Assembly: GCF_002001085.1 (NCBI RefSeq)
Contig: NZ_MUNU01000013.1
Span: forward strand, 186,001-250,000
Length of the DNA stretch: 64,000 bases
Origin: Rhodanobacter sp. B05
Lineage (GTDB): Bacteria > Pseudomonadota > Gammaproteobacteria > Xanthomonadales > Rhodanobacteraceae
Direction of reading: 5' to 3'
The notes beneath the pieces are model-generated. The model ran no database searches, was not told where the DNA came from, and was given only the letters and a program-made list of their open reading frames with translations. This document shows, in pieces, positions 35,681-49,259 of this stretch. The position numbers were made by a program, and so were the translations under genes. Positions within the stretch are counted from its first letter, which is position 1, and the number at the start of each line of letters is the position of its first letter.

Positions 35681-36838
35681 ATGAAAGCCGCCAGTCCTGA
35701 GCTCATGTCCAGCATCGCCGTGCCCACCAAGCTGCTGACCGTGATCCAGCTGATCCCCGCGCTGCATTCCGGTGGCGCGGAGCGTTCGGCGCTGGAGATC
35801 GCCAGGGCGCTGGTACAGGCCGGGCATCGCTCGGTGGTGATTTCGGGCGGTGGCCGCCTGGTCGGGCAGCTGCTGGCCGAGGGCAGCGAGCACATCACGC
35901 TGGATCTGGGGAGCAAGTCGTTGCGCACGCTCGGCCGGATCGGCGCGTTGCGTCGGGTGCTGCGCGAGCTCAAGCCCGACATCGTGCATGCCCGCTCACG
36001 GCTGCCGGCGTGGATCGGCTGGGGGGCACTGAAGGGCATCCGGCCGCGGCCGCATTTCGTCACCACGGTGCACGGCTTCAATTCGCCGGGACGCTACAGT
36101 TCGATCATGCTGCGCGGCGAACGCGTCGTGGTGGTTTCGCAGACCCTGCGCGATTACGTGCTGAGCCACTACCGCTGGCTGGAGCCGTCCCGGGTGCGGG
36201 TGATTCCGCGCGGCATCGACCCGGAAGCATTCCCCTACGGACATCGGCCGGACGACGCCTGGCAGAAAGCGTTCTTCGCCGAGTTCCCCGCATTGAACGG
36301 CGCGCCGCTGCTGACCATGCCCGCACGCGGCACGCGGCTGAAGGGTCATCACGATGCGATCGAGCTGCTGGCGGACCTCAAGCGCCGCGGCATCGAGGCG
36401 CGCCTGCTGCTGCTTGGCGTGATCGAGCCAGGTCGGGAAGCCTACGTGGCCGAGCTGCAGGAGCTGATCCGGCTGCGCGGCGTCACCTCGCAGGTCGTGT
36501 TGTCGCCGCCGCGCGACGACATTCGCGACATCTACGCGGTCTCGGCGCTGGTGCTGCAGCTGTCGACCAGGCCCGAGTCGTTCGGACGCACCGTGGTCGA
36601 GGCGCTGTCGCTGTGCCGGCCGGTACTGGGCTATGCCCACGGCGGCGTCGGCGAGTTGCTGGCCGAACTGTACCCCGCTGGCCGGGTACCACTGGGCGAT
36701 CGCGAGCGGCTGGTGGAGCGCGCCGCCGAATTGTTGCGCGTAGCACCGCCCATCGCGCCACTGCAGAGTTACCGCCTGAGCGACATGCAGCAGACAACAC
36801 TGGCGCTTTACGAGGAAGTCAGCCAGCTGCAGGAGTGA
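35681..36838 (+). CDS. Glycosyltransferase family 4 (LPS-type)
   Basis: GT-B glycosyltransferase of 385 aa. The N-terminal donor-side loop is IQLIPALHSGGAERSALEIARAL. The C-terminal half has a Glycos_transf_1 domain with the EX7E-like segment RPESFGRTVVEALSLCRPVLGYAHGGVGELL. ATG 35705 is an alternative start. It lies just before the O-antigen ligase gene on the same strand with a 72-base gap, so it probably builds LPS core or O-chain. The sugar donor is not deducible. Confidence 0.87.
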   Translation: MKAASPELMSSIAVPTKLLTVIQLIPALHSGGAERSALEIARALVQAGHRSVVISGGGRLVGQLLAEGSEHITLDLGSKSLRTLGRIGALRRVLRELKPDIVHARSRLPAWIGWGALKGIRPRPHFVTTVHGFNSPGRYSSIMLRGERVVVVSQTLRDYVLSHYRWLEPSRVRVIPRGIDPEAFPYGHRPDDAWQKAFFAEFPALNGAPLLTMPARGTRLKGHHDAIELLADLKRRGIEARLLLLGVIEPGREAYVAELQELIRLRGVTSQVVLSPPRDDIRDIYAVSALVLQLSTRPESFGRTVVEALSLCRPVLGYAHGGVGELLAELYPAGRVPLGDRERLVERAAELLRVAPPIAPLQSYRLSDMQQTTLALYEEVSQLQE

Positions 36839-36910
36839 GCGGGTGTTCGCGCAGCTCGTCGGGGCTCGCGCTCGCCTACAATGCGGCAACGCCTTTGCTC
36901 CGGTTCCTGC

Positions 36911-38242
36911 ATGAATTCCCTCACCGCCTCGCTCAAGGACGCGTTGCGTTCGCCCCTGCTGCCGTTCTGGCTGGTGATCGCGCTGCTGCCGTTCGGCCGC
37001 AGTGCCGAGCTGGGTACTTTCCTGTGCCTGCTTGGCGTCATCATGCTGTTCGCGCGCGATCCGCATGCCCTGCGCCAGCACCCCGGCGCGCAATTGCTGC
37101 TGTGGTTGCTGGCGGCCTATGTGGCGGCGGCGCTGTTTTCCGCTGTCGATGCGATCCGGCCCGGCAAGAGCTGGGGCACGGTGGCCGCGCTGCTGCGCTA
37201 TGTGCCGCTGGGGTTGTATGCGTGTTTCGCGATACGCCGGGAGCGCAAGCTGCACGCGCTGTACGTGGCCGTGGCCGCGGTGCTCGCCCTGTGGTGTGCC
37301 GACGCGTGGCTGCAGGCATTCACCGGCTGGAGTCTCGGCGGGCATCCCGACGCCGAGCGCATCTCCGGCATCTTCGGCGCGCACAACCTGAAGCTGGGGC
37401 CGACCCTGGCGGTGTTGTCGCCGTTCGCGCTGTGGGCGGCGCGGCAGCGCTGGGGGCGACCCGGCCTGCTGCTGGCCAGCGTACTGGTGCTGGGGCCGGT
37501 GCTGCTGGCCGGTTCGCGCTCGGCCTGGTTGTGTTACGTGCTGGTGCTGCTGGGTTTCGCCTGGCGCGAAGCCCGGTCGACGCGGCGTTTCGTGCTTTGC
37601 TGTGCCGTGGCCGCGGCATTGCTCGGGCTGGCTGGCGGGATCGCCTGGAAAAGCTCGGTGCGATTCCAGGATCGGATGACGCGCACCCTGCTGGTGTTGC
37701 ATGGCACCGATCAAGCGGTGGATACGGCGCTCAGTGGCCGGCTCGACATCTGGCATGCCAGCGTCAGGATGATCGCGGCGCATCCGATCAATGGCGTTGG
37801 CGTGCGCGACTTCCGCTACGCGTATCCCCACTACGCACCGGCAAACGACCACTTCGTGGTTTCCGACGAGGCCTGTGGCGTGGGCGAGGGTGCCTGCCAT
37901 CCGCACCAGTTGGTGCTGGAGATCCTCACCGGAACCGGCGCGCTCGGCCTGCTGCTGTGGCTGGTCGCGGTGGCCTGGGGCTGGCGGGCATGGCGACGGG
38001 TGGGTGTGGCGGCACGGTCACGCGCCTTCCCCGTCACGCTGGCGCTGGGCGTGATGCTGTTTCCGCTGAATTCGCACCTGGCGTTCTACTCGGCGTGGTG
38101 GGGCCTGCTGTTTGCGTGGCTGCTCGGCCTGTGGTGCGCCAGTCTATTTGTGGCCGGCGTCCCTGCCGGCACAGCAGAAACCGGCATCCCTGCCGGACTC
38201 CTCAAAGAAGCTTCCCTCCGCGAGGCGCGTGATGGCGCCTGA
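36911..38242 (+). CDS. O-antigen ligase family protein (WaaL/Wzy-type)
   Basis: Inner-membrane protein of 443 aa with 10 to 12 TMs and a large periplasmic loop (about 240-345) containing LSGRLDIWHASVRMIAAHPINGVGVRDFR and the conserved HPHQLVLEIL; both regions carry the Arg and His expected of Wzy_C ligases. It would join O-antigen to lipid A-core in the periplasm. The start is at ATG 36911. The 3-prime end overlaps the next glycosyltransferase by 11 bases. Confidence 0.88.
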   Translation: MNSLTASLKDALRSPLLPFWLVIALLPFGRSAELGTFLCLLGVIMLFARDPHALRQHPGAQLLLWLLAAYVAAALFSAVDAIRPGKSWGTVAALLRYVPLGLYACFAIRRERKLHALYVAVAAVLALWCADAWLQAFTGWSLGGHPDAERISGIFGAHNLKLGPTLAVLSPFALWAARQRWGRPGLLLASVLVLGPVLLAGSRSAWLCYVLVLLGFAWREARSTRRFVLCCAVAAALLGLAGGIAWKSSVRFQDRMTRTLLVLHGTDQAVDTALSGRLDIWHASVRMIAAHPINGVGVRDFRYAYPHYAPANDHFVVSDEACGVGEGACHPHQLVLEILTGTGALGLLLWLVAVAWGWRAWRRVGVAARSRAFPVTLALGVMLFPLNSHLAFYSAWWGLLFAWLLGLWCASLFVAGVPAGTAETGIPAGLLKEASLREARDGA

Positions 38243-39005
38243 ACCGCTGTCGGTGGTGGTGACCACGTTCAACAGCGTCGACACGCTCGACGCCTGCCTG
38301 CGCAGCGTGGCCTGGGCCGACGAGTTGGTGGTGCTGGACTCCGGTTCGACCGATGCGACCCTCGCCATCGCGGCGCACTACCACGCGAGCGTCCACACGC
38401 AGCCATTCGCCGGCTACAGCGCGCAGAAGCAGGCGGCGATCGACCTGGCCAGCCACCGCTGGGTGCTATTGCTGGATTCGGACGAGTCGCTGCCGGCCGG
38501 CGCAGCCACGCTGCTGCGACAGGCACTGGCGTCGCCGGTCCACGCCGGTTACCAACTGTGGCGGCGCGAGTGGCAGTTCTGGCGCTGGCAGTCGCCGCGC
38601 ACCCGGCTCAACCACTATGTGCGACTGTTCGACCGGCAGCGTGCGCGGATGAGCGGGCATGAAGTACACGAGTCGGTGCAGGTCGATGGCCCGATCGGCG
38701 TACTCGACATCATCATCGATCATTACGGCGAGCCCGATATCGCCGGCCGCGTGGTCAAGGCCAATCGCTACTCCAGCCTGCAACTGGCCGACCTGGATCA
38801 GCGCGCCGTGCCCTGCTTGCGTCTGCGCATGGTCGCCTACCCGATGGTCGCGTTCGCGCGTTACTACCTGCTGCGCGGGCATTGGCGCGCGGGCTGGGCC
38901 GGGTTCATCGCCGCGCGGATCCACGCCTTCTACGCCTTCCTGAAATACGCCAAGTTGTACGAAGCGCGCCGGCGCGAGGCGGATCGGGCCGAACCCGATC
39001 AGTAA
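38232..39005 (+). CDS. Glycosyltransferase family 2 (WaaE/KdtX-like)
   Basis: GT-A enzyme of 257 aa. It begins LSVVVTTFNSVDTLDACLRS, has the VVLDSGSTD motif near residue 38, and the DSDES metal-binding segment near 84. QPFAGYSAQKQAAIDLA is characteristic of LPS core glycosyltransferases of the WaaE/KdtX group. It overlaps the ligase gene and shares its operon. It ends seven bases inside the convergent acyltransferase gene. Confidence 0.88.
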   Translation: MAPEPLSVVVTTFNSVDTLDACLRSVAWADELVVLDSGSTDATLAIAAHYHASVHTQPFAGYSAQKQAAIDLASHRWVLLLDSDESLPAGAATLLRQALASPVHAGYQLWRREWQFWRWQSPRTRLNHYVRLFDRQRARMSGHEVHESVQVDGPIGVLDIIIDHYGEPDIAGRVVKANRYSSLQLADLDQRAVPCLRLRMVAYPMVAFARYYLLRGHWRAGWAGFIAARIHAFYAFLKYAKLYEARRREADRAEPDQ

Positions 39006-39916
39006 ACGGACGGCTGCCCCGGTGGCCGGGTCTTGAAGCGCTTGTGCACCCACAGGTATTGCCCGGGTGCCTCGCGCACCATCTGTTCGATGCAGACGTT
39101 GACCCTGGCGGTATCGTCCAGCACGTCGTCGCCGGGAAAATCCTGCAGCGGCGCGGCGAGGCGCAGTACGTAACCCTGCCCGTCGGGCAGGCGTCGATGG
39201 AAGAATGGAATCACCACTGCGCCGGACATCCGCGCCAGGTGGTGGGTGGCGGTGATGGTCGCCGCGGGTACGCCGAAGAACGGCACGAACACGGTATCCT
39301 TGCTGCGCATGTCCTGATCCGGGGCGTACCACAGCGTGCCGCCGCCGCGCAGGTATTTCACGGTGCCGCGGATGTCGTCCTTGTCGAACATCGCCGCGGC
39401 ATAGTGCAGTCGTGCACGCAGCACCACCCATTCGAACACGCTCGAATCCATCCGTCGGTACATGCCGGCGATGCGGATACGCTGCGAGACCAGCCGCGCG
39501 CACAGTTCCAGGTGCGAGAAATGGCCGCCCACCAGCAACACGCCCTTGCCCAGGGCGCGTGCCTGCTCGAGGTGTTCGAGCCCTTCGATGCGGGTGGCGA
39601 TCGCGGCCATGCGGCGGTCGCTGGCCATCCAGCCCAGCGCGAACTCCACCAGCATCTGGCCGATGTCGCGCAAGTTGGCGTCGACCAGCGCATTGCGCTC
39701 CGTGGCATCGAGCTCGGGGAAGCAGAGCGCGATATTGGCGGCGGCAATGCGTCGTCGCGCCGAAGGTATGCGCAGCACCAGTGCGCCGAGGCAACGGCCG
39801 AGCCATCGCATCGCGGCCGGCGGCAAGCGTGCGATCAGCCAGATCGAGGCCGCACCCAGCCATGCCGGCCAATGGCGCGGCGCGAGCAGGGCGCGGGTGA
39901 AGTCGGGGCGGGGCAT
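38999..39916 (-). CDS. lpxL: Lipid A biosynthesis acyltransferase (LpxL/HtrB family)
   Basis: Late acyltransferase that adds a secondary acyl chain to Kdo-lipid A precursor at the inner membrane. The catalytic HX4E motif is His132-Glu137 in GGHFSHLEL. An N-terminal TM anchor and the YAPDQDM segment fit the family. From ATG 39916 it is 305 aa, matching E. coli LpxL (306). In-frame ATGs at 39925 and 39934 are alternatives, and none has a strong ribosome-binding site. It is divergent from waaA, whose product makes its usual substrate. Confidence 0.9.
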   Translation of the reverse strand: MPRPDFTRALLAPRHWPAWLGAASIWLIARLPPAAMRWLGRCLGALVLRIPSARRRIAAANIALCFPELDATERNALVDANLRDIGQMLVEFALGWMASDRRMAAIATRIEGLEHLEQARALGKGVLLVGGHFSHLELCARLVSQRIRIAGMYRRMDSSVFEWVVLRARLHYAAAMFDKDDIRGTVKYLRGGGTLWYAPDQDMRSKDTVFVPFFGVPAATITATHHLARMSGAVVIPFFHRRLPDGQGYVLRLAAPLQDFPGDDVLDDTARVNVCIEQMVREAPGQYLWVHKRFKTRPPGQPSVY

Positions 39917-40010
39917 GCCGGGCATCGCCGGCATTGTAGCGGGCTGTCCGCGCGCGGGTTTGCCGCGCTGGCTCTCGCTATACTCCCGCGTTGCCTGCAA
40001 GGATCCGTCG

Positions 40011-41276
40011 TTGCGTTTTCTGTACACCCTCGCCATGTTCCTGGCCACGCCGTTGCTGGTGCTGCGCCTGCTCGCGCGCGGGTTGCGTTCGCGGCCGTAC
40101 CACTGGCGCTGGCCCGAGCGCTTTGGATTCTTCAAGGCGCCCGACATTCGCGGCAGCCTGTGGGTGCACGCGGTGTCGGTGGGCGAGGTGAATGCCGCCG
40201 AGCCGTTGATCAAGGCCTTGCAGCATGACTATCCCGAGGCGCCGCTGGTGATCACCACTGTCACCCCGACCGGCACGGCCCGGGTGCAGCAGTTGTTCGG
40301 CGACAGCGTGTTCCATGTGTACCTGCCGTATGACCTGCCGTTCGCGGTGCGCCGGTTCATGAACCGGATCCGTCCGCGACTGGCGCTGATCGTGGAAACC
40401 GAGATCTGGCCGAACCTCTATTTTGCCTGTCGGCGGCGCGGCATTCCGCTGATGATCGTCAATGCGCGGTTGTCGGAGCGCTCAATGCGCGGCTACAAGC
40501 CGTTGCGAAGCCTGCTGCGTTCAGCGTTGCGCTGCGTGGACCGGATTGCGGCGCAATCGCGCACCGATGCGGCGCGCTACCGCCTGCTGGGGGCCGACCC
40601 GAAGAAGATCCTGGTCAGCGGCAACATGAAGTTCGACATGCCGATACCCGAAGCGGCGCGGGCCGATGGCGCGGCCATGCGCGCGCGCTGGGGCGAGCGA
40701 CGACCAGTCTGGATGGCCGCCAGCACCCACGAGGGCGAGGAGCTCGCGGCGCTCGAGGCGCACCTCCAGGTACTGCGGCGATTGCCTGACGCGCTGCTGC
40801 TGCTGGCGCCGCGCCATCCCGAGCGGTTCCGCATGGTCGAACATGCGGTGCGCGGCCTTGGATTCAGGGTTGCCACGCGCAGCGTCGACGGCGTGCCGAC
40901 GGCCGCACACCAGGTTTGCGTGATCGACGCGATGGGCCAGCTGATGCCGTTCTTCGCCGGCAGCGACGTGGCCTTCGTGGGCGGCAGCCTGGTGCCGATC
41001 GGCGGCCACAACGTGCTGGAGCCCGCGGCACTGTCGGTGCCGGTCCTGGTGGGGCCGCACACCTTCAATTTCGAGGAGATCACCCGCAGCCTGATCGAGC
41101 AGGGCGGCGCCGAGGTGGTGCCGGATGCCGCGCATCTCGGCCCGGACGTGCTGCGTCTGCTGCTCGATGGTGCCCGGCGCGAGCAGATGGGCGAGGCGGC
41201 GCAGCGGGTTTTCGAACGCGAACGCGGCGCGGTGCAGCGGGTCATGCAACTGATCGATGCGTTGTTGCAGGAATGA
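40011..41276 (+). CDS. waaA: 3-deoxy-D-manno-octulosonic acid (Kdo) transferase
   Basis: Transfers Kdo from CMP-Kdo to lipid IVA. Protein of 421 aa with an N-terminal TM anchor (LRFLYTLAMFLATPLLVLR), the PERFGFF acceptor motif, ETEIWPNLYF, and the C-terminal CMP-Kdo site GGSLVPIGGHNVLEPA. I start it at TTG 40011: AAGGA lies seven bases upstream and the N-terminus then aligns with E. coli KdtA (MLELLYTALLYL). The first in-frame ATG downstream (40035) would cut into the anchor. Convergent with tolC. Confidence 0.93.
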   Translation: MRFLYTLAMFLATPLLVLRLLARGLRSRPYHWRWPERFGFFKAPDIRGSLWVHAVSVGEVNAAEPLIKALQHDYPEAPLVITTVTPTGTARVQQLFGDSVFHVYLPYDLPFAVRRFMNRIRPRLALIVETEIWPNLYFACRRRGIPLMIVNARLSERSMRGYKPLRSLLRSALRCVDRIAAQSRTDAARYRLLGADPKKILVSGNMKFDMPIPEAARADGAAMRARWGERRPVWMAASTHEGEELAALEAHLQVLRRLPDALLLLAPRHPERFRMVEHAVRGLGFRVATRSVDGVPTAAHQVCVIDAMGQLMPFFAGSDVAFVGGSLVPIGGHNVLEPAALSVPVLVGPHTFNFEEITRSLIEQGGAEVVPDAAHLGPDVLRLLLDGARREQMGEAAQRVFERERGAVQRVMQLIDALLQE

Positions 41277-43611: not shown

Positions 43612-43640
43612 TGGCAAATAAATGAACCGTGGCGTATAAT
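43612..43640 (+). promoter_or_regulatory. Sigma70-like promoter of the TetR gene
   Basis: TGGCAA (43612-43617) and a perfect TATAAT (43635-43640) are 17 bases apart, 33 bases before the ATG. This is one of the best promoter matches in the window. It lies between divergent pcm and tetR. Confidence 0.7.
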
Positions 43641-43673
43641 AAAGCCCATATTTCTGTTTGTGAAGGTGGAGGC

Positions 43674-44330
43674 ATGAGTACCAGCGCGCCAATCAGAGCC
43701 CAGGGACCTGGTCGACCAAAGGACATGGAAAAGCGCGCAGCGATCCTGGCGGCAGCGAAGGCGCTGTTCATCAGCAATGCGTTCGCCGGTACCAGCATGG
43801 ACGCTATCGCCGCCGATGCCGGCGTGTCCAAGCTCACCGTCTACAGCCATTTCGGCGACAAGGACAACCTGTTCCGCGAAGTGATCCGCTCGCGCATCCA
43901 GGACCTGCTGCCGGAGGAAACCTACCGTTTCGAGCGGCAGACCGATATCCGCGAGACCCTGCTGCGGGTGGCGCTGACCCATGCCCATCTGGATTGCAAC
44001 GCCGAGACCGTGGGTACCTTCCGCGCGATCCTCAGCGACTGTCGCCAGGGCAACCCGCGCTACGGCAAGCTGATCTGGGAGGAAGGCGCGACGCGTACCC
44101 ACGGGCTGATGGAGCGCCTGCTGCAACAGGCAGTGAACGCCGGTCAACTTGAGATCGAGGACGTGCCGCGGGCCAGCATGCAGTTTCTCACCTTGATCAA
44201 GGGCAACCTGATGATGCGGCAGATGTTCGGGTGCACCAGCTGTCCCGAAAGCTATCTGAAGGAAATCGAGGCCACGGCGCGTGCCGGTGTGAGCACGTTC
44301 CTGCGTGCCTTCCTGCCGCGCGCGCACTGA
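43674..44330 (+). CDS. TetR/AcrR-family transcriptional regulator
   Basis: Repressor-type regulator of 218 aa. The N-terminal HTH (RAAILAAAKALFISNAFAGTSMDAIAADAGVSKLTVYSHFGDKDNLF) is textbook TetR/AcrR; the C-terminal half is helical and variable. A GGAGG ribosome-binding site and a strong promoter precede ATG 43674. It is divergent from pcm-tolC, a layout typical of efflux regulation, so it probably controls that operon and itself. No clear palindromic operator is visible. Confidence 0.88.
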   Translation: MSTSAPIRAQGPGRPKDMEKRAAILAAAKALFISNAFAGTSMDAIAADAGVSKLTVYSHFGDKDNLFREVIRSRIQDLLPEETYRFERQTDIRETLLRVALTHAHLDCNAETVGTFRAILSDCRQGNPRYGKLIWEEGATRTHGLMERLLQQAVNAGQLEIEDVPRASMQFLTLIKGNLMMRQMFGCTSCPESYLKEIEATARAGVSTFLRAFLPRAH

Positions 44331-44635: not shown

Positions 44636-46468
44636 ATGAAGCTTCACGTGCCTTTTGTGCAACTTCCGGTGCAGTTCGACGCCGCCCGTCTGCTCGCCGA
44701 AGTCGAAGCACTGGGGCCGGATCGGTGGATCGACCACCCGCAAAAATTTCCCGGCAACTACGCGTTGCCACTGATCTCGGTCCATGGCGATCCGGCCAGC
44801 GATGCGGTTGCCGGCCCGATGCGGCCGACCCCTGCGCTCGCGGAGTGCCCATACCTGATGCAAGTGCTCCATCGACTTGGCGCGGTGTGGGGACGTACGC
44901 GCCTGATGAAGCTCAGCGGCCACGCCGAAGTTACCCCGCATACGGATCTCAGTTACTACTGGCGTGAGCGGGTGCGCGTGCACGTGCCGATCCGTACCAA
45001 GCCCAATGTGCGTTTCTTCTGTGGCGACGCCGACGTCAACATGGCGGCGGGCGAGTGCTGGATCTTCAACACGTGGCTCAGCCACCGCGTCGTGAACGGC
45101 GATGACGACGAGAGGATTCACCTGGTCGCCGACAGCGTGGGCAGTGATCCGTTCTGGCAGCTGGTCAGGAATGGCCGGGCGCCCGGGCACGGCAACTTCC
45201 AGGATTGGCGGGCGGAACCCGTGGCGCCGAAGTCGGAGGCGACGTCGGACCTGATGTACGAATCGGTCAACGTACCGCAGGTGATGACGCCCTGGGAGAT
45301 ACGCGAGCACCTGATGTTCCTGCTCAGCGACGTGCGTCCGCACCCACAGATTCCCGTCGTGCGGACCGTCATATCGCGCTTCGCGTTCGCCTGGCAGGCG
45401 CTGTGGGCGCAGTACGGTCCCGATCGCCGTGGGTGGCCGGACTACCGCAGGGCGCTGGACGAGTTTCGTCAGCAGATGACCCAGGCGGCTGCCCCGTTGC
45501 AGCTCGCTTGCGGAGCGCAGTTCATGAACGGTTTGCGGGCGGGCATCCTGGACGTTGCGCTGGCTGACCGCGACCAGGATTTCGGTGCGCGCGAAACGCG
45601 CCCCCTACCCAGGGGAGCCGTGGCATCGAGCCAGTACGACCCGGAATTCGATCGTCCGGTTTTCATCGTGTCCTCGCCCCGATCGGGCTCGACCCTGCTG
45701 TTCGAGACACTGACACAGGCGCGCGGCCTGTACACCATCGGCAGGGAAAGCCACGCCCTGATCGAGGACATGGCGGCGCTGAATCCCGGCCTGCTCGGCT
45801 ACGCGTCCAACCGGTTGCCGGCCAGTGCGGCGACACCGGCCGTGGTAAGGGAATTGCGCCAGCGCATGTGGGCCGAGCTGCGCGATCGCGATGGCGCGGC
45901 GCCGACGGGCGCGCCGGTGCGCGTACTTGAAAAGACGCCCAAGAATGCGTTGCGGGTGCCGTTCCTGGCCGAGGCATTTCCCCAGGCGCGATTCGTCTAC
46001 CTGTATCGCGACCCGCGGCAGACGCTCAGCAGCATGATCGAGGCCTGGCAATCGGGCCGCTTCCGCACCTATGCGGATCTTCCTGGCTGGAAAGGCCTGC
46101 CCTGGTCGATGCTGCTGGTACCGGGCTGGCGCGAGTTGAACGGTCGCTCGCTGCAGCAGATCGTGGCCGCGCAATGGGAGATCACCACGCAAACCCTGCT
46201 GGATGACCTGAGCGCCTTGCCTGCCGGGCGCTGCCAGGTCGTGCATTACGATACGTTCCTCGCGAACCCCGCCGACGAGGTGGCGCGGTTGTGCAAAAGC
46301 CTCGACCTGCCGTGGGATCGCCCCCTGGACATGGCACTGCCGCTGTCGCGCTATACCGTGTCCGAGCCGGCGGCGGACAAATGGCGCCGCCACGCCGATC
46401 TGATCGACGAAGTGTTGCCGGCCTTGCAGGCCACGCGAGATCGCGCCGAGCAGTTCGCGGGAAGCTGA
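44636..46468 (+). CDS. Asp/Asn beta-hydroxylase-like oxygenase fused to a sulfotransferase (copy 1)
   Basis: Protein of 610 aa. The N-terminal domain (about 1-170) belongs to the aspartyl/asparaginyl beta-hydroxylase Fe(II)/2-oxoglutarate group: HxD (His102-Asp104 in TPHTD), second His150, 2OG-binding Arg160 in ERIHLVAD, and the RVHVPI strand. A helical linker follows. The C-terminal domain (about 340-600) is a PAPS sulfotransferase: PRSGSTLLFE (5-prime phosphosulfate loop, near 347), EKTPKNALRVPFLAEAFP, and YLYRDPRQTLSSM (3-prime phosphate site). One polypeptide could therefore hydroxylate and sulfate. The substrate is unknown. A close paralogue follows 192 bases downstream. Confidence 0.88.
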   Translation: MKLHVPFVQLPVQFDAARLLAEVEALGPDRWIDHPQKFPGNYALPLISVHGDPASDAVAGPMRPTPALAECPYLMQVLHRLGAVWGRTRLMKLSGHAEVTPHTDLSYYWRERVRVHVPIRTKPNVRFFCGDADVNMAAGECWIFNTWLSHRVVNGDDDERIHLVADSVGSDPFWQLVRNGRAPGHGNFQDWRAEPVAPKSEATSDLMYESVNVPQVMTPWEIREHLMFLLSDVRPHPQIPVVRTVISRFAFAWQALWAQYGPDRRGWPDYRRALDEFRQQMTQAAAPLQLACGAQFMNGLRAGILDVALADRDQDFGARETRPLPRGAVASSQYDPEFDRPVFIVSSPRSGSTLLFETLTQARGLYTIGRESHALIEDMAALNPGLLGYASNRLPASAATPAVVRELRQRMWAELRDRDGAAPTGAPVRVLEKTPKNALRVPFLAEAFPQARFVYLYRDPRQTLSSMIEAWQSGRFRTYADLPGWKGLPWSMLLVPGWRELNGRSLQQIVAAQWEITTQTLLDDLSALPAGRCQVVHYDTFLANPADEVARLCKSLDLPWDRPLDMALPLSRYTVSEPAADKWRRHADLIDEVLPALQATRDRAEQFAGS

Positions 46469-46660
46469 GGGCACGTTCCCCGCCGGGGGCCTTCACGGGC
46501 CTCGCCTGCACGTCCCTGCGCCGACGAAAGCCACTGCTGCCACCGCTGCGGGATTACTCTCGCCCGCTTTCCGCCGCCAACACCGGTGGTGTGAGAAACT
46601 GCATGGCGATGGTTTTCGCGTGGGCACAGCAGCCTGCGACAAGGATCGAAGGTTGTTTGA

Positions 46661-48511
46661 ATGAAGCTACAAGTCCCGTTCGTTCAGTTGCCGTTGCGCT
46701 TCGACGCCGCCCGATTGCTGAGCGAAGTGAGCGCGCTCGACCATGGCCAGTGGCTCGAGCACCCACAGAAGTTTCCGGGCAACTACGCGTTGCCGCTGAT
46801 CTCGGTGGGTGGAGATCCGCACAGCGATGCGATCGCCGGGCCGATGCGGCCGACGCCGTCGCTGGCGCAGTGCCCGTACCTGATGCAGGTGCTCGGTCGG
46901 ATCGGCGCCGTGTGGGGGCGTACCCGACTGATGAAGCTCAGCGGTCATGCCGAGGTCACTCCGCATGCCGATATCAACTACTACTGGCGTGAGCGTGTGC
47001 GCGTGCACGTGCCGATCGTGACTCGACCGACCGTGCGTTTTCTCTGCGGTGATGCCGAGGTCAACATGGCCGCAGGCGAATGCTGGATCTTCGACACCTG
47101 GCGCACCCATCAGGTGCTCAACGCCGCCGACGACGAGCGTATCCACCTGGTTGCGGACACGATCGGCAGCGATCAGTTCGCCGACCTGGTCCGGCGTGGC
47201 CGCGCACCGGGTCACGGCGAATTCGCGGGCTGGCTGGCGGAAGCGGTGACGCCGCGCGAGGAAGCAAACCCGGTACTGCGTTACGAGTCGGTCAATGTGC
47301 CGGTGGTGATGACGCCCTGGGAGTTGCGCGAGCACATCGGTTTCCTGCTTGGCCACGCGCGTCCGCATCCGCAGCTCGCGCTGGCCCAGCAGGCGGCGGC
47401 GCGATTCCTGGGCATCTGGCACGCCTTGTGGGCCGAGTACGGCATCGATCGTGCGGGTTGGCCGGCCTATCGCCAGGAGCTCGAAGCGTTCGAGACATAT
47501 ATGGAGCGGTTCGCGGTATCCCTGCAATTGGCCAATGGCGCGATGTTCATGAACACCCTGAGGGCCATGATCCTTCGTGTTGCATTGAGCGATCGCGGGC
47601 TGGCCGCGGATGCGTACGAACCGCGCCGGTCCGCCGCGGTGCCCGCGATGTCGACCAGACCAAGCGGCGAGGCGAAGCGCGACCCCCTGTTCGATCGTCC
47701 GGTATTCATCATTTCGCCCCCGCGTGCAGGCTCGACGCTGCTGTTCGAAACACTGGCGAAAGCTCCTGGCCTGTGCACCATTGGTCATGAAAGTCACGCG
47801 CTGATCGAAGGTCTGCCGGATCTGCACCCGGGGCATCGACAGTTCGACTCCAATCGACTCGACGAGACGATCGTGACGCCGGCACTGGCGGAGGAACTGC
47901 GTCAACGGTTTCTGGCGGAACTGCGTGACCGCGATGGTCGCCCCGTGACGGGGCAGCCGCTGCGCCTGTTGGAGAAAACGCCGAAGAACGCCTTGCGCGT
48001 GCCGTTCCTGGCGAAAATTTTCCCGGAGGCGCATTTCGTCTATCTGCATCGCGATCCGCGGCAGACCCTCAGCAGCATGCTCGAGGCATGGCAATCAGGT
48101 CGCTTCCGCACCTATCCGCAATTGCCGGACTGGAGTGGTTTGCCATGGTCGCTGTTGCTGATACCAGGCTGGCGCGAGCTGATCGGGCGCTCGCTGCCCG
48201 AGATCGTGGCCGCACAATGGGAAACGACGACGCGCATCCTGCTGGACGACCTCGAGGCGATCCCCGCCGATCGTCGCCACGTGGTCCGCTACGATGCGTT
48301 GCTGGCCGATCCTGGTGCCGAAGTGGCGCGTCTGGCCGAAATACTCGGATTTGGCTGGGACCAACCCATCGACGGCAAGCTGCCGTTGTCGCGCTTCACG
48401 GTGTCCCCACCCTCGGTCGACAAGTGGAAGCGGCACGCGGAATTGATCGAACCCGTGCTGGGCACGATGCAGGCCACGATCGAGCGCGCAAGCCGTTTCG
48501 CCGGGGCCTGA
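46661..48511 (+). CDS. Asp/Asn beta-hydroxylase-like oxygenase fused to a sulfotransferase (copy 2)
   Basis: Protein of 616 aa, colinear with the upstream paralogue. By hand count 135 of the first 170 residues are identical. His102-Asp104 (TPHAD), His150 and Arg160 are at identical positions. The sulfotransferase loop reads PRAGSTLLFE (Ala for Ser next to Arg), followed by EKTPKNALRVPFLAKIFP and YLHRDPRQTLSSM. All predicted catalytic residues are kept, so both copies are probably active. AAGG lies nine bases before the ATG. The linker region (about 215-345) differs most, which may reflect distinct substrates. Confidence 0.88.
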   Translation: MKLQVPFVQLPLRFDAARLLSEVSALDHGQWLEHPQKFPGNYALPLISVGGDPHSDAIAGPMRPTPSLAQCPYLMQVLGRIGAVWGRTRLMKLSGHAEVTPHADINYYWRERVRVHVPIVTRPTVRFLCGDAEVNMAAGECWIFDTWRTHQVLNAADDERIHLVADTIGSDQFADLVRRGRAPGHGEFAGWLAEAVTPREEANPVLRYESVNVPVVMTPWELREHIGFLLGHARPHPQLALAQQAAARFLGIWHALWAEYGIDRAGWPAYRQELEAFETYMERFAVSLQLANGAMFMNTLRAMILRVALSDRGLAADAYEPRRSAAVPAMSTRPSGEAKRDPLFDRPVFIISPPRAGSTLLFETLAKAPGLCTIGHESHALIEGLPDLHPGHRQFDSNRLDETIVTPALAEELRQRFLAELRDRDGRPVTGQPLRLLEKTPKNALRVPFLAKIFPEAHFVYLHRDPRQTLSSMLEAWQSGRFRTYPQLPDWSGLPWSLLLIPGWRELIGRSLPEIVAAQWETTTRILLDDLEAIPADRRHVVRYDALLADPGAEVARLAEILGFGWDQPIDGKLPLSRFTVSPPSVDKWKRHAELIEPVLGTMQATIERASRFAGA

Positions 48512-48662: not shown

Positions 48663-49259
48663 ATGGCCAAGACCAAGCCGTTCGTCAGCGATATCGAGAA
48701 CATCCGCAAGCGCGCGCGCAAGGACATCGACAAGGGTGCGATGACCGCCGGTTACCGCGCCGACCGCGAAACCGTGGTCAAGCTGCTCAACCAGGCGCTC
48801 GCCACCGAGCTGGTCTGCGTGCTGCGCTACAAATATCACTACTACATGGCCTCGGGCATCCACTCGCAGGCGATCAAGGCCGAATTCCTGCAGCATGCGA
48901 ACGAGGAGCAGGGCCACGCCGATCTGATCGCCGAGCGCATCACCCAGCTCGACGGCAAGCCGAACCTGTCACCGGAAGGCCTGCTCAGCCGCAGCCATTC
49001 AGACTACGTCGAGGGCGAAGACATCGTCGACATGATCAAGGAGGATCTGGTTGCCGAACGCATCGCGATCGACAGCTATCGCGAGATGATCAGCTACGTC
49101 GGCACCGACGATCCGACCACCCGCCGCGTGCTCGAAGGCATCCTGGCGATGGAGGAAGAACACGCCGAGGACATGAATACGCTGCTGGAGCAGCTCGGCA
49201 AGAAGGGCGAGCCGGCCAAGCCGTCGCCGACCAGGAAAGCTGCGGGCAAGCGGCGCTGA
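48663..49259 (+). CDS. Ferritin-like (bacterioferritin/DPS-type) iron protein
   Basis: Protein of 198 aa with a four-helix ferritin fold. Di-iron-type residues are visible: Glu in ALATELVCVLRYKY, EEQGH, Glu in EDLVAERIAIDSY and MEEEHAEDM. The N-terminal 30 and C-terminal 25 residues are Lys/Arg-rich, as in some DNA-interacting ferritins. Homologues are annotated as bacterioferritin in xanthomonads. AGGAG precedes the ATG. It is monocistronic and followed by a strong terminator. Confidence 0.82.
   Translation: MAKTKPFVSDIENIRKRARKDIDKGAMTAGYRADRETVVKLLNQALATELVCVLRYKYHYYMASGIHSQAIKAEFLQHANEEQGHADLIAERITQLDGKPNLSPEGLLSRSHSDYVEGEDIVDMIKEDLVAERIAIDSYREMISYVGTDDPTTRRVLEGILAMEEEHAEDMNTLLEQLGKKGEPAKPSPTRKAAGKRR

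Follow-up and report, generated by a model that had tools for sequence, protein, structure and literature searches.

Human aspartyl/asparaginyl beta-hydroxylase (AspH), L-proline cis-4-hydroxylase and the tyrosylprotein sulfotransferases TPST1 and TPST2 are the closest described counterparts of two adjacent genes of Rhodanobacter sp. B05, each of which encodes an oxygenase and a sulfotransferase in one chain. The genes lie in a 64,000-nucleotide stretch of contig NZ_MUNU01000013.1 (positions 186,001 to 250,000), hereafter the window. AspH acts on Asp and Asn residues of EGF-like domains, TPST1 and TPST2 are eukaryotic Golgi enzymes that sulfate Tyr in proteins, and in the related CurM sulfotransferase the sulfate serves as a leaving group. 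To our knowledge, bacteria contain many sulfotransferases and Asp/Asn-hydroxylase-like oxygenases to which no substrate has been assigned; one fused chain ties the two chemistries to one substrate and can be tested with one protein and one mass shift. No description of a hydroxylase-sulfotransferase fusion was found in the titles and abstract openings of open-licence PMC literature, in searches that also covered TonB links, Rhodanobacter sulfotransferases and peptide links. In the excerpts of PMC6817910 that describe AspH, the metal site consists of two His without a metal-binding acid, Lys666 and Arg688 form salt bridges with the substrate Asp side chain, and His690, Arg688, Arg735 and Ser668 hold a 2-oxoglutarate analogue.

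Domain architecture and active sites

An earlier note, made from this DNA alone, had described two adjacent genes that each join an oxygenase to a sulfotransferase using 3'-phosphoadenosine 5'-phosphosulfate (PAPS). That description holds. Both open reading frames (ORFs) are present (Table 1), and profile searches place the N-terminus in the oxygenase group (Pfam PF05118, Asp_Arg_Hydrox, from residue 65 in both; E 1.9e-14 and 1.2e-14; 54.2 and 54.9 bits against a gathering cut-off of 22.6) and the C-terminus in the sulfotransferase group (PF13469, Sulfotransfer_3; E 1.4e-27 and 4.8e-27; 97.8 and 96.1 bits, cut-off 27). The PRSGST or PRAGST loop for PAPS and the RDPRQTLSSM segment are present as the note had read them. 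Each chain comprises, in order, an oxygenase of the Fe(II)/2-oxoglutarate class, related in type to the Asp/Asn and proline hydroxylases, a linker that varies, and the PAPS sulfotransferase. No Pfam match to TPR repeats was found in either protein at E 0.1, and the proteins are taken as cytoplasmic, inspection by eye having shown no signal peptide.

Table 1. Features of the fusion locus (window coordinates). HMM, hidden Markov model; pLDDT, predicted local distance difference test.
Feature	Coordinates	Strand	Basis
Fusion gene 1, oxygenase and sulfotransferase, 610 aa	44636..46468	+	ORF; Pfam PF05118 and PF13469 over cut-off
Gene 1 oxygenase unit, residues 1-312 (beta-helix core ~1-184, helical part ~219-305)	44636..45571	+	predicted model and fold matches
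Gene 1 linker, residues 313-335	45572..45640	+	pLDDT <50 at 315-332; copies 6/23 identical
Gene 1 PAPS sulfotransferase, residues 336-610	45641..46465	+	PF13469 E 1.4e-27; TPST1 fold match
Fusion gene 2, 616 aa, old paralogue by the domain trees, same architecture	46661..48511	+	ORF; Pfam; separate place in both domain trees
Gene 2 oxygenase unit, residues 1-312	46661..47596	+	PF05118 E 1.2e-14; own HMM match to residue 312
Gene 2 PAPS sulfotransferase, ~residues 342-616	47684..48508	+	PF13469 E 4.8e-27; own HMM match from residue 343
TetR/AefR-like regulator directly upstream	43629..44330	+	PF00440, PF14246; same gene cluster in 18 loci

The oxygenase unit of gene 1 (model mbbe15e7ba955, residues 1-311, from 77 alignment rows) was predicted with a pLDDT of 95.3 and a predicted template modelling score (pTM) of 0.90. 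Its core is closest in fold to a nucleoside-antibiotic hydroxylase (7v4m; Z 16.4, 2.1 Å, 153 residues), followed by L-proline cis-4-hydroxylase (4p7x, Z 15.3, 3.0 Å, 180 residues; 4p7w, Z 15.2, 180 residues, spanning model residues 5-302) and AspH (8re5; Z 14.8, 2.8 Å, 160 residues). The proline hydroxylase is also the best PDB sequence match of the oxygenase profile (4p7w/4p7x, E 1.2e-10); it differs in acting on free proline and in that its solved 292-residue chain has no sulfotransferase.

His102, Asp104, His150 and Arg160, which the earlier note had named in both proteins, are invariant in all 26 fused proteins of an alignment (A1) that includes the window copies. Conservation was also scored in 101 distinct oxygenase domains, defined as segments with E <1e-30 to our own HMM, from 133 records (the window and fetched loci) processed with a home-made gene caller. 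Outside this set are shorter relatives such as that of G060, the dropped fragment L133_5, L200 and L201 (both fused) and L202 (an oxygenase beside a TPR-sulfotransferase and a TonB receptor); L134, L148 and L154 yielded no called oxygenase gene. Asp104 and Arg114 are kept in all 101 domains and Arg89, His102, His116, His150 and Arg160 in 99, and Arg112 is replaced by His in 12. The two exceptions (L083:9300-11636 and L084:8211-10445) are oxygenase-DUF4915 proteins without a sulfotransferase domain; having lost R89, H102, H116, H150 and R160, they are apparent pseudo-oxygenases kept on a DUF4915 domain.

The fold shared with AspH extends to seven active-site residues: paired by eye through the RxRxH motif, which three extra residues precede in this family, AspH Lys666, His679, Arg686, Arg688, His690, His725 and Arg735 correspond to Arg89, His102, Arg112, Arg114, His116, His150 and Arg160. 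The enzymes differ in that Asp104 completes a metal triad here, whereas AspH has two His alone; in that Met91 occupies the position of Ser668 of the AspH RXS motif; in that AspH has N-terminal TPR repeats; and in that a sulfotransferase is attached here. Arg89 and Arg114 also align with arginines of proline cis-4-hydroxylase that we take to be Arg93 and Arg118 (the numbering assumes a 12-residue tag) and whose role we presume to be similar. Because these two residues align with AspH Lys666/Arg688 and with the proline hydroxylase arginines, the substrate likely carries a carboxylate, although the alignment fits a protein Asp and a free amino acid alike.

The best fold match of the sulfotransferase half is TPST1 (5wri; Z 17.6, 3.6 Å, 226 residues), with TPST2 and the CurM sulfotransferase (Z 16.6) as further matches. 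It shares with TPST1/2 the PAPS loop and Glu371, which aligns within the GEET motif of TPST1, where we take the catalytic Glu to lie, but identity in the fold alignments is only 16-19%. Among 71 distinct sulfotransferase domains, P348, R349 and G351 are kept in all, R458 in 70 and Glu371 in 69, both Glu371 misses being split genes of Lysobacter. A transferase in a damaged-looking locus (L154_10) also lacks R458, S466, Q513 and W514. CurM is among the nearest sequence relatives too (E 7.4e-06), and by analogy the sulfate on a new hydroxyl could act as a leaving group, for net desaturation or cyclisation; of the window genes read, none was recognised as a polyketide gene, and we regard such activation as very improbable. 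The resemblance to tyrosylprotein sulfotransferases would also fit two independent modifications, with Asp, Asn or Pro hydroxylated and a different residue such as Tyr sulfated, the fusion only co-delivering the two. Lone oxygenases and degenerate split sulfotransferases in Lysobacteraceae, described below, are consistent with it. No substrate with an acidic Tyr site was identified, no search for one having been made, and independent modification offers no special reason for repeated fusion; we think it rather unlikely. These alternatives and those discussed below are not all mutually exclusive.

Paralogy and selection

The N-terminal identity that the earlier note had counted by hand, 135 of 170 residues, is exact; overall the copies share 410 of 610 aligned residues (67%), with 84/142 at residues 171-312, 6/23 at 313-335 and 185/275 at 336-610. 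In a tree of 100 oxygenase domains, gene 1 (window_37) groups with G035 (support 100/99), and gene 2 (window_38) lies inside a separate 16-row clade (100/99) that also includes copies beside TPR-sulfotransferases and TonB receptors. A quickly built tree of the sulfotransferase half recovered the same nearest neighbours, weakly supported in the case of window_38 (0.78, 0.37). A recent tandem duplication is ruled out by the separate places of the copies in both domain trees, which mark them as old paralogues; the word "tandem" in the earlier note is right for their position and wrong for their origin. Scans for a promoter or terminator between the copies, which are weak, found none. The split genes L074, L075 and L076 form one clade amid mostly fused rows, which suggests fission of a fused gene, although the direction of change depends on a midpoint root.

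Nonsynonymous and synonymous rates (dN/dS pairs) were calculated by the Nei-Gojobori method with our own script for the oxygenase core, residues 185-312, linker and transferase in turn. They were 0.075/0.993, 0.222/0.847, 0.221/1.207 and 0.070/0.643 for gene 1 against G035; 0.098/1.09, 0.226/0.929, 0.507/1.734 and 0.150/1.229 for gene 2 against G031; and 0.143/0.994, 0.376/1.134, 0.800/0.658 and 0.255/1.099 between the copies. Across these comparisons the ratio spans ~0.08-0.14 for the oxygenase core and 0.11-0.23 for the sulfotransferase, so that both halves are under purifying selection. With the catalytic residues kept, these values support selection on both halves, in line with the selection for two activities that the earlier note had thought likely, and rule out a dead or passenger domain in either copy.

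Recurrence of the oxygenase-sulfotransferase pairing

Because 40 of 149 genomes (own included) match at E 1e-20, 24 of these through both halves, the fusion is not a chance event. In an even sample of the phylum, 16/398 genomes had an oxygenase relative at 1e-20, many of a short kind; in an even sample of the class, 14/369 matched the fusion profile at 1e-40, five (own included) over its whole length. The oxygenase profile had 245 confirmed places in the GTDB 220 collection, and loci were fetched for the best 80 of the 245, which include Rhodanobacteraceae, Lysobacteraceae, Caulobacteraceae and Hyphomonadaceae. Of the 101 oxygenase domains, 64 are fused to a sulfotransferase and 5 are split from an adjacent one. 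Among the lone domains, 14 have another sulfotransferase in the locus, 12 have none in the locus DNA examined and 6 lie near a contig end; some other lone loci are on short contigs.

Two of the 64 fused proteins carry a third domain, DUF4915/TIGR03032 (L068:7922-10933 and L080:8979-12155); no mention of TIGR03032 or DUF4915 was found in the literature searched. An ATP sulfurylase-adenosine 5'-phosphosulfate (APS) kinase gene is the second gene from the L068 protein, which also lies near a 1765-aa Calx-beta/beta-helix protein. A separate short PF05118 protein (L123:13344-14000, minus strand, 218 aa) belongs to a cluster that recurs near the fusion in 10 of the 80 fetched loci.

A divergent branch pairs the same chemistries in another way. 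Its oxygenases are ~190-270 aa long and match only ~residues 8-190 of the profile (own HMM, E 1e-24 to 1e-34). A sulfotransferase-like gene of 317-398 aa lies beside the short oxygenase in L191, L193, L194, L195, L196, L198 and L199; of four of these seven checked with Pfam, three exceed the PF13469 cut-off and L195 falls below. L190 and L192, fetched together with these, have no adjacent sulfotransferase-like gene, and neither has L197, which a contig end truncates. G060 holds a single 565-aa chain in which residues 445-548 match PF05118 and the first part matches no Pfam family at 0.01; residues 12-374 align with the sulfotransferase-like gene of G172 (38%) and residues 372-563 with the oxygenase of G399 (49%). 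By these alignments it is a fusion in reverse order, a sulfotransferase-like part followed by the oxygenase. With three candidates scored per genome, the short oxygenase half was found in 12 genomes of the sample, 9 of which have the transferase half as well; in G372 the two are ~9 kb apart. The short pairs, from Sphingomonas-like and other genomes, thus share with the window a homologous oxygenase beside (in G060, fused behind) a sulfotransferase-like protein, and differ in using another sulfotransferase branch and, in some, in having tail-collar, DUF4347 or lasso-like neighbours.

Proposed reaction and candidate substrates

A joint reaction is proposed mainly because the pairing recurs, fused, adjacent and in reverse order. 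The oxygenase would bind Fe(II) on His102, Asp104 and His150 and 2-oxoglutarate on Arg160, and would place a hydroxyl next to a carboxylate gripped by Arg89 and Arg114, as AspH Lys666 and Arg688 grip Asp. The C-terminal domain would then transfer sulfate from PAPS to the same substrate, most simply to the new hydroxyl, the substrate most likely being a protein or peptide bound for the cell surface. To judge from the sequences, a two-domain enzyme that works bifunctionally, with both sites intact, is highly probable. Given such an enzyme, sulfation at the same site is slightly favoured. Hydroxylation and sulfation of one substrate by a cytoplasmic enzyme, most simply at a single site of what is probably an exported protein or peptide, has in our view an even chance of being correct. 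A more specific version is speculative and rather unlikely: that a single-chain hydroxylate-then-sulfate enzyme installs a sulfated beta-hydroxy amino acid on exported proteins, the pair having been assembled repeatedly and in opposite orders. If the sulfate does land on the new hydroxyl, the product would, as far as we know, be a new post-translational modification. The idea in the earlier note that a hydroxyl is made and then sulfated in one chain stands as to coupling, which fusion, adjacency and the reverse-order fusion support; that the same hydroxyl is sulfated is something we infer.

TonB receptors, giant secreted proteins and lasso-like peptides near relatives provide a short list of candidate substrates. 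Among 100 loci with an upstream neighbour, 12 have a TonB receptor as that neighbour, encoded on the same strand (receptors were identified with our own HMMs, with Pfam checks in L161 of Pseudoxanthomonas, L086 and L202). The 12 loci belong to Lysobacter, Vulcaniibacterium, Pseudoxanthomonas and another Lysobacteraceae, and the receptor is followed by a lone, split or fused oxygenase. Most TonB-linked Lysobacteraceae loci have thiC-like and pyrophosphatase-like flanks (named from sequence starts), as relatives of the window do. The own genome (3.8 Mb) has an APS kinase. It also has 38 matches to the TonB plug, 37 of which exceed the cut-off, and 13 to Sulfotransfer_3; by listed coordinates, 6 of the 13 lie <=5 kb from a plug match, the window copies not among them. 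Its TPR-sulfotransferase genes at L085, L086, L087 and L090 adjoin TonB-dependent receptors, a gene set that recurs, and L086 and L087 also have a TPR-AspH homologue. These two loci hold both chemistries (by Pfam in L086, by our own HMMs in L087), but on separate chains with TPR repeats, and the window copies have no TonB plug domain within 80 kb on their contig.

The TonB linkage would also suit a small-molecule pathway, in which a free amino acid or metabolite is hydroxylated and then sulfated, perhaps for TonB-linked uptake or export, and the proline hydroxylase and nucleoside-antibiotic hydroxylase matches given above (E 1.2e-10 and Z 16.4) point the same way. However, no biosynthetic set was identified among the neighbours of the window copies, and both the AspH homologue of L086 and the sulfotransferase linked to it have TPR repeats, which are usual in protein-acting enzymes. 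Such a pathway seems to us rather unlikely.

Several observations weigh against the proposed hydroxylation and sulfation of one exported substrate. The two most serious are that the window itself offers no substrate, the copies adjoining neither a receptor nor a giant secreted protein nor a precursor peptide, and that some relatives have an oxygenase but no nearby transferase. Since several Lysobacteraceae are of the latter kind, the two steps are separable. Two split Lysobacter sulfotransferases (L156_8 and L162_7) have changed E371 and S466 (L156 also S352), as if decaying; these and the 12/101 oxygenases without a sulfotransferase in the locus DNA examined, the rest of those genomes not having been searched, weaken the case for same-hydroxyl sulfation. 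In 4 of the 14 loci with another sulfotransferase (L067, L114, L115 and L116), the count includes that of an adjoining fused paralogue. In favour of the pairing, TPR-sulfotransferase genes occupy 29/383 positions 1-2 genes away against 5/621 positions 5-10 genes away, and TonB receptors 16/383 against 6/621, but these counts come from loci of common ancestry. The nearest PDB sequence relative acts on a free amino acid. Finally, the earlier note had looked to structure prediction for the two active sites and their distance; the fold of the oxygenase unit is confident, but the whole-chain model (pTM 0.51) does not reliably place one domain relative to the other.

Gene neighbourhood

Two glycosyltransferases, an O-antigen ligase, a lipid A acyltransferase and a Kdo transferase are encoded at 35681-41276, 3.4 to 9 kb upstream of the fusion genes. 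The absence of an adjacent polysaccharide gene, as claimed earlier, is therefore true of the immediate neighbours only. The fusion could accordingly be imagined to modify lipid A or lipopolysaccharide, with an LpxO-like hydroxylation followed by sulfation, and the same clusters flank it in many Rhodanobacter loci. Neither window protein matches LpxO (NCBIfam NF033391) at E 0.1, however, and the relative L068 scores 12.5 bits against a cut-off of 500. In flanks of <=10 kb, the Kdo-transferase and acyltransferase clusters (5 and 7) occur in none of the Lysobacter, Pseudoxanthomonas or Hyphomonadaceae loci compared, and we consider this function the least probable of those discussed.

The TetR/AefR-like gene, whose start is uncertain (our caller begins at 43725), possibly regulates the fusion genes. 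Directly downstream of gene 2 lies a ferritin-like gene (48663-49259, plus strand), found in 12 loci, and a further 2-oxoglutarate oxygenase (PF13640; 50060-50947, minus strand) stands beside a pyrophosphatase-like gene, an arrangement conserved in relatives. A comparison of 768 small ORFs <=2.5 kb from the oxygenases found no conserved peptide family in more than 8 loci; the 8-locus family lies ~2 kb away, and most families resemble shared non-coding DNA. In 7 of the 80 fetched loci a conserved small protein of ~55 aa (cluster 34), hydrophobic by eye, is encoded nearby.

Large proteins with secretion features adjoin the fusion in two species (L069:10909-14718 and L071:11030-14872) and are possible substrates; the former has DUF4347 and IPTL-CTERM, and the latter was assigned by similarity. 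Near the divergent pairs, tail-collar proteins occur in L191 and L195 (by Pfam) and in L096 and L193 (by resemblance), and a DUF4347 giant protein lies beside the pair in L195. The earlier statement that no maturase of ribosomally synthesised peptides is adjacent holds at the window, whereas the divergent relatives L191 and L193 sit in a lasso-like peptide cluster. In L191, PqqD, B2 and AsnB-like genes exceed their cut-offs and an HPr-kinase-like gene falls below; the L193 cluster was labelled by resemblance to it. In a published halotolerance table for Pontixanthobacter and Allopontixanthobacter, cluster numbers close to one another are given to two sulfotransferases, an aspartyl beta-hydroxylase, lasso B2, PqqD and asparagine synthase, and of these genes the portion of the article's text available discusses only asparagine synthase (PMC10040529). 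The L191 and L193 clusters hold PqqD, a transglutaminase-like B2, the weak HPr-kinase-like gene, the oxygenase and sulfotransferases, and beside their AsnB-like genes are candidate precursors with a W-x-T-P-x-V-I motif (L191:11635-11826, minus strand, and L193:2372-2536, plus strand; 63 and 54 aa as called).

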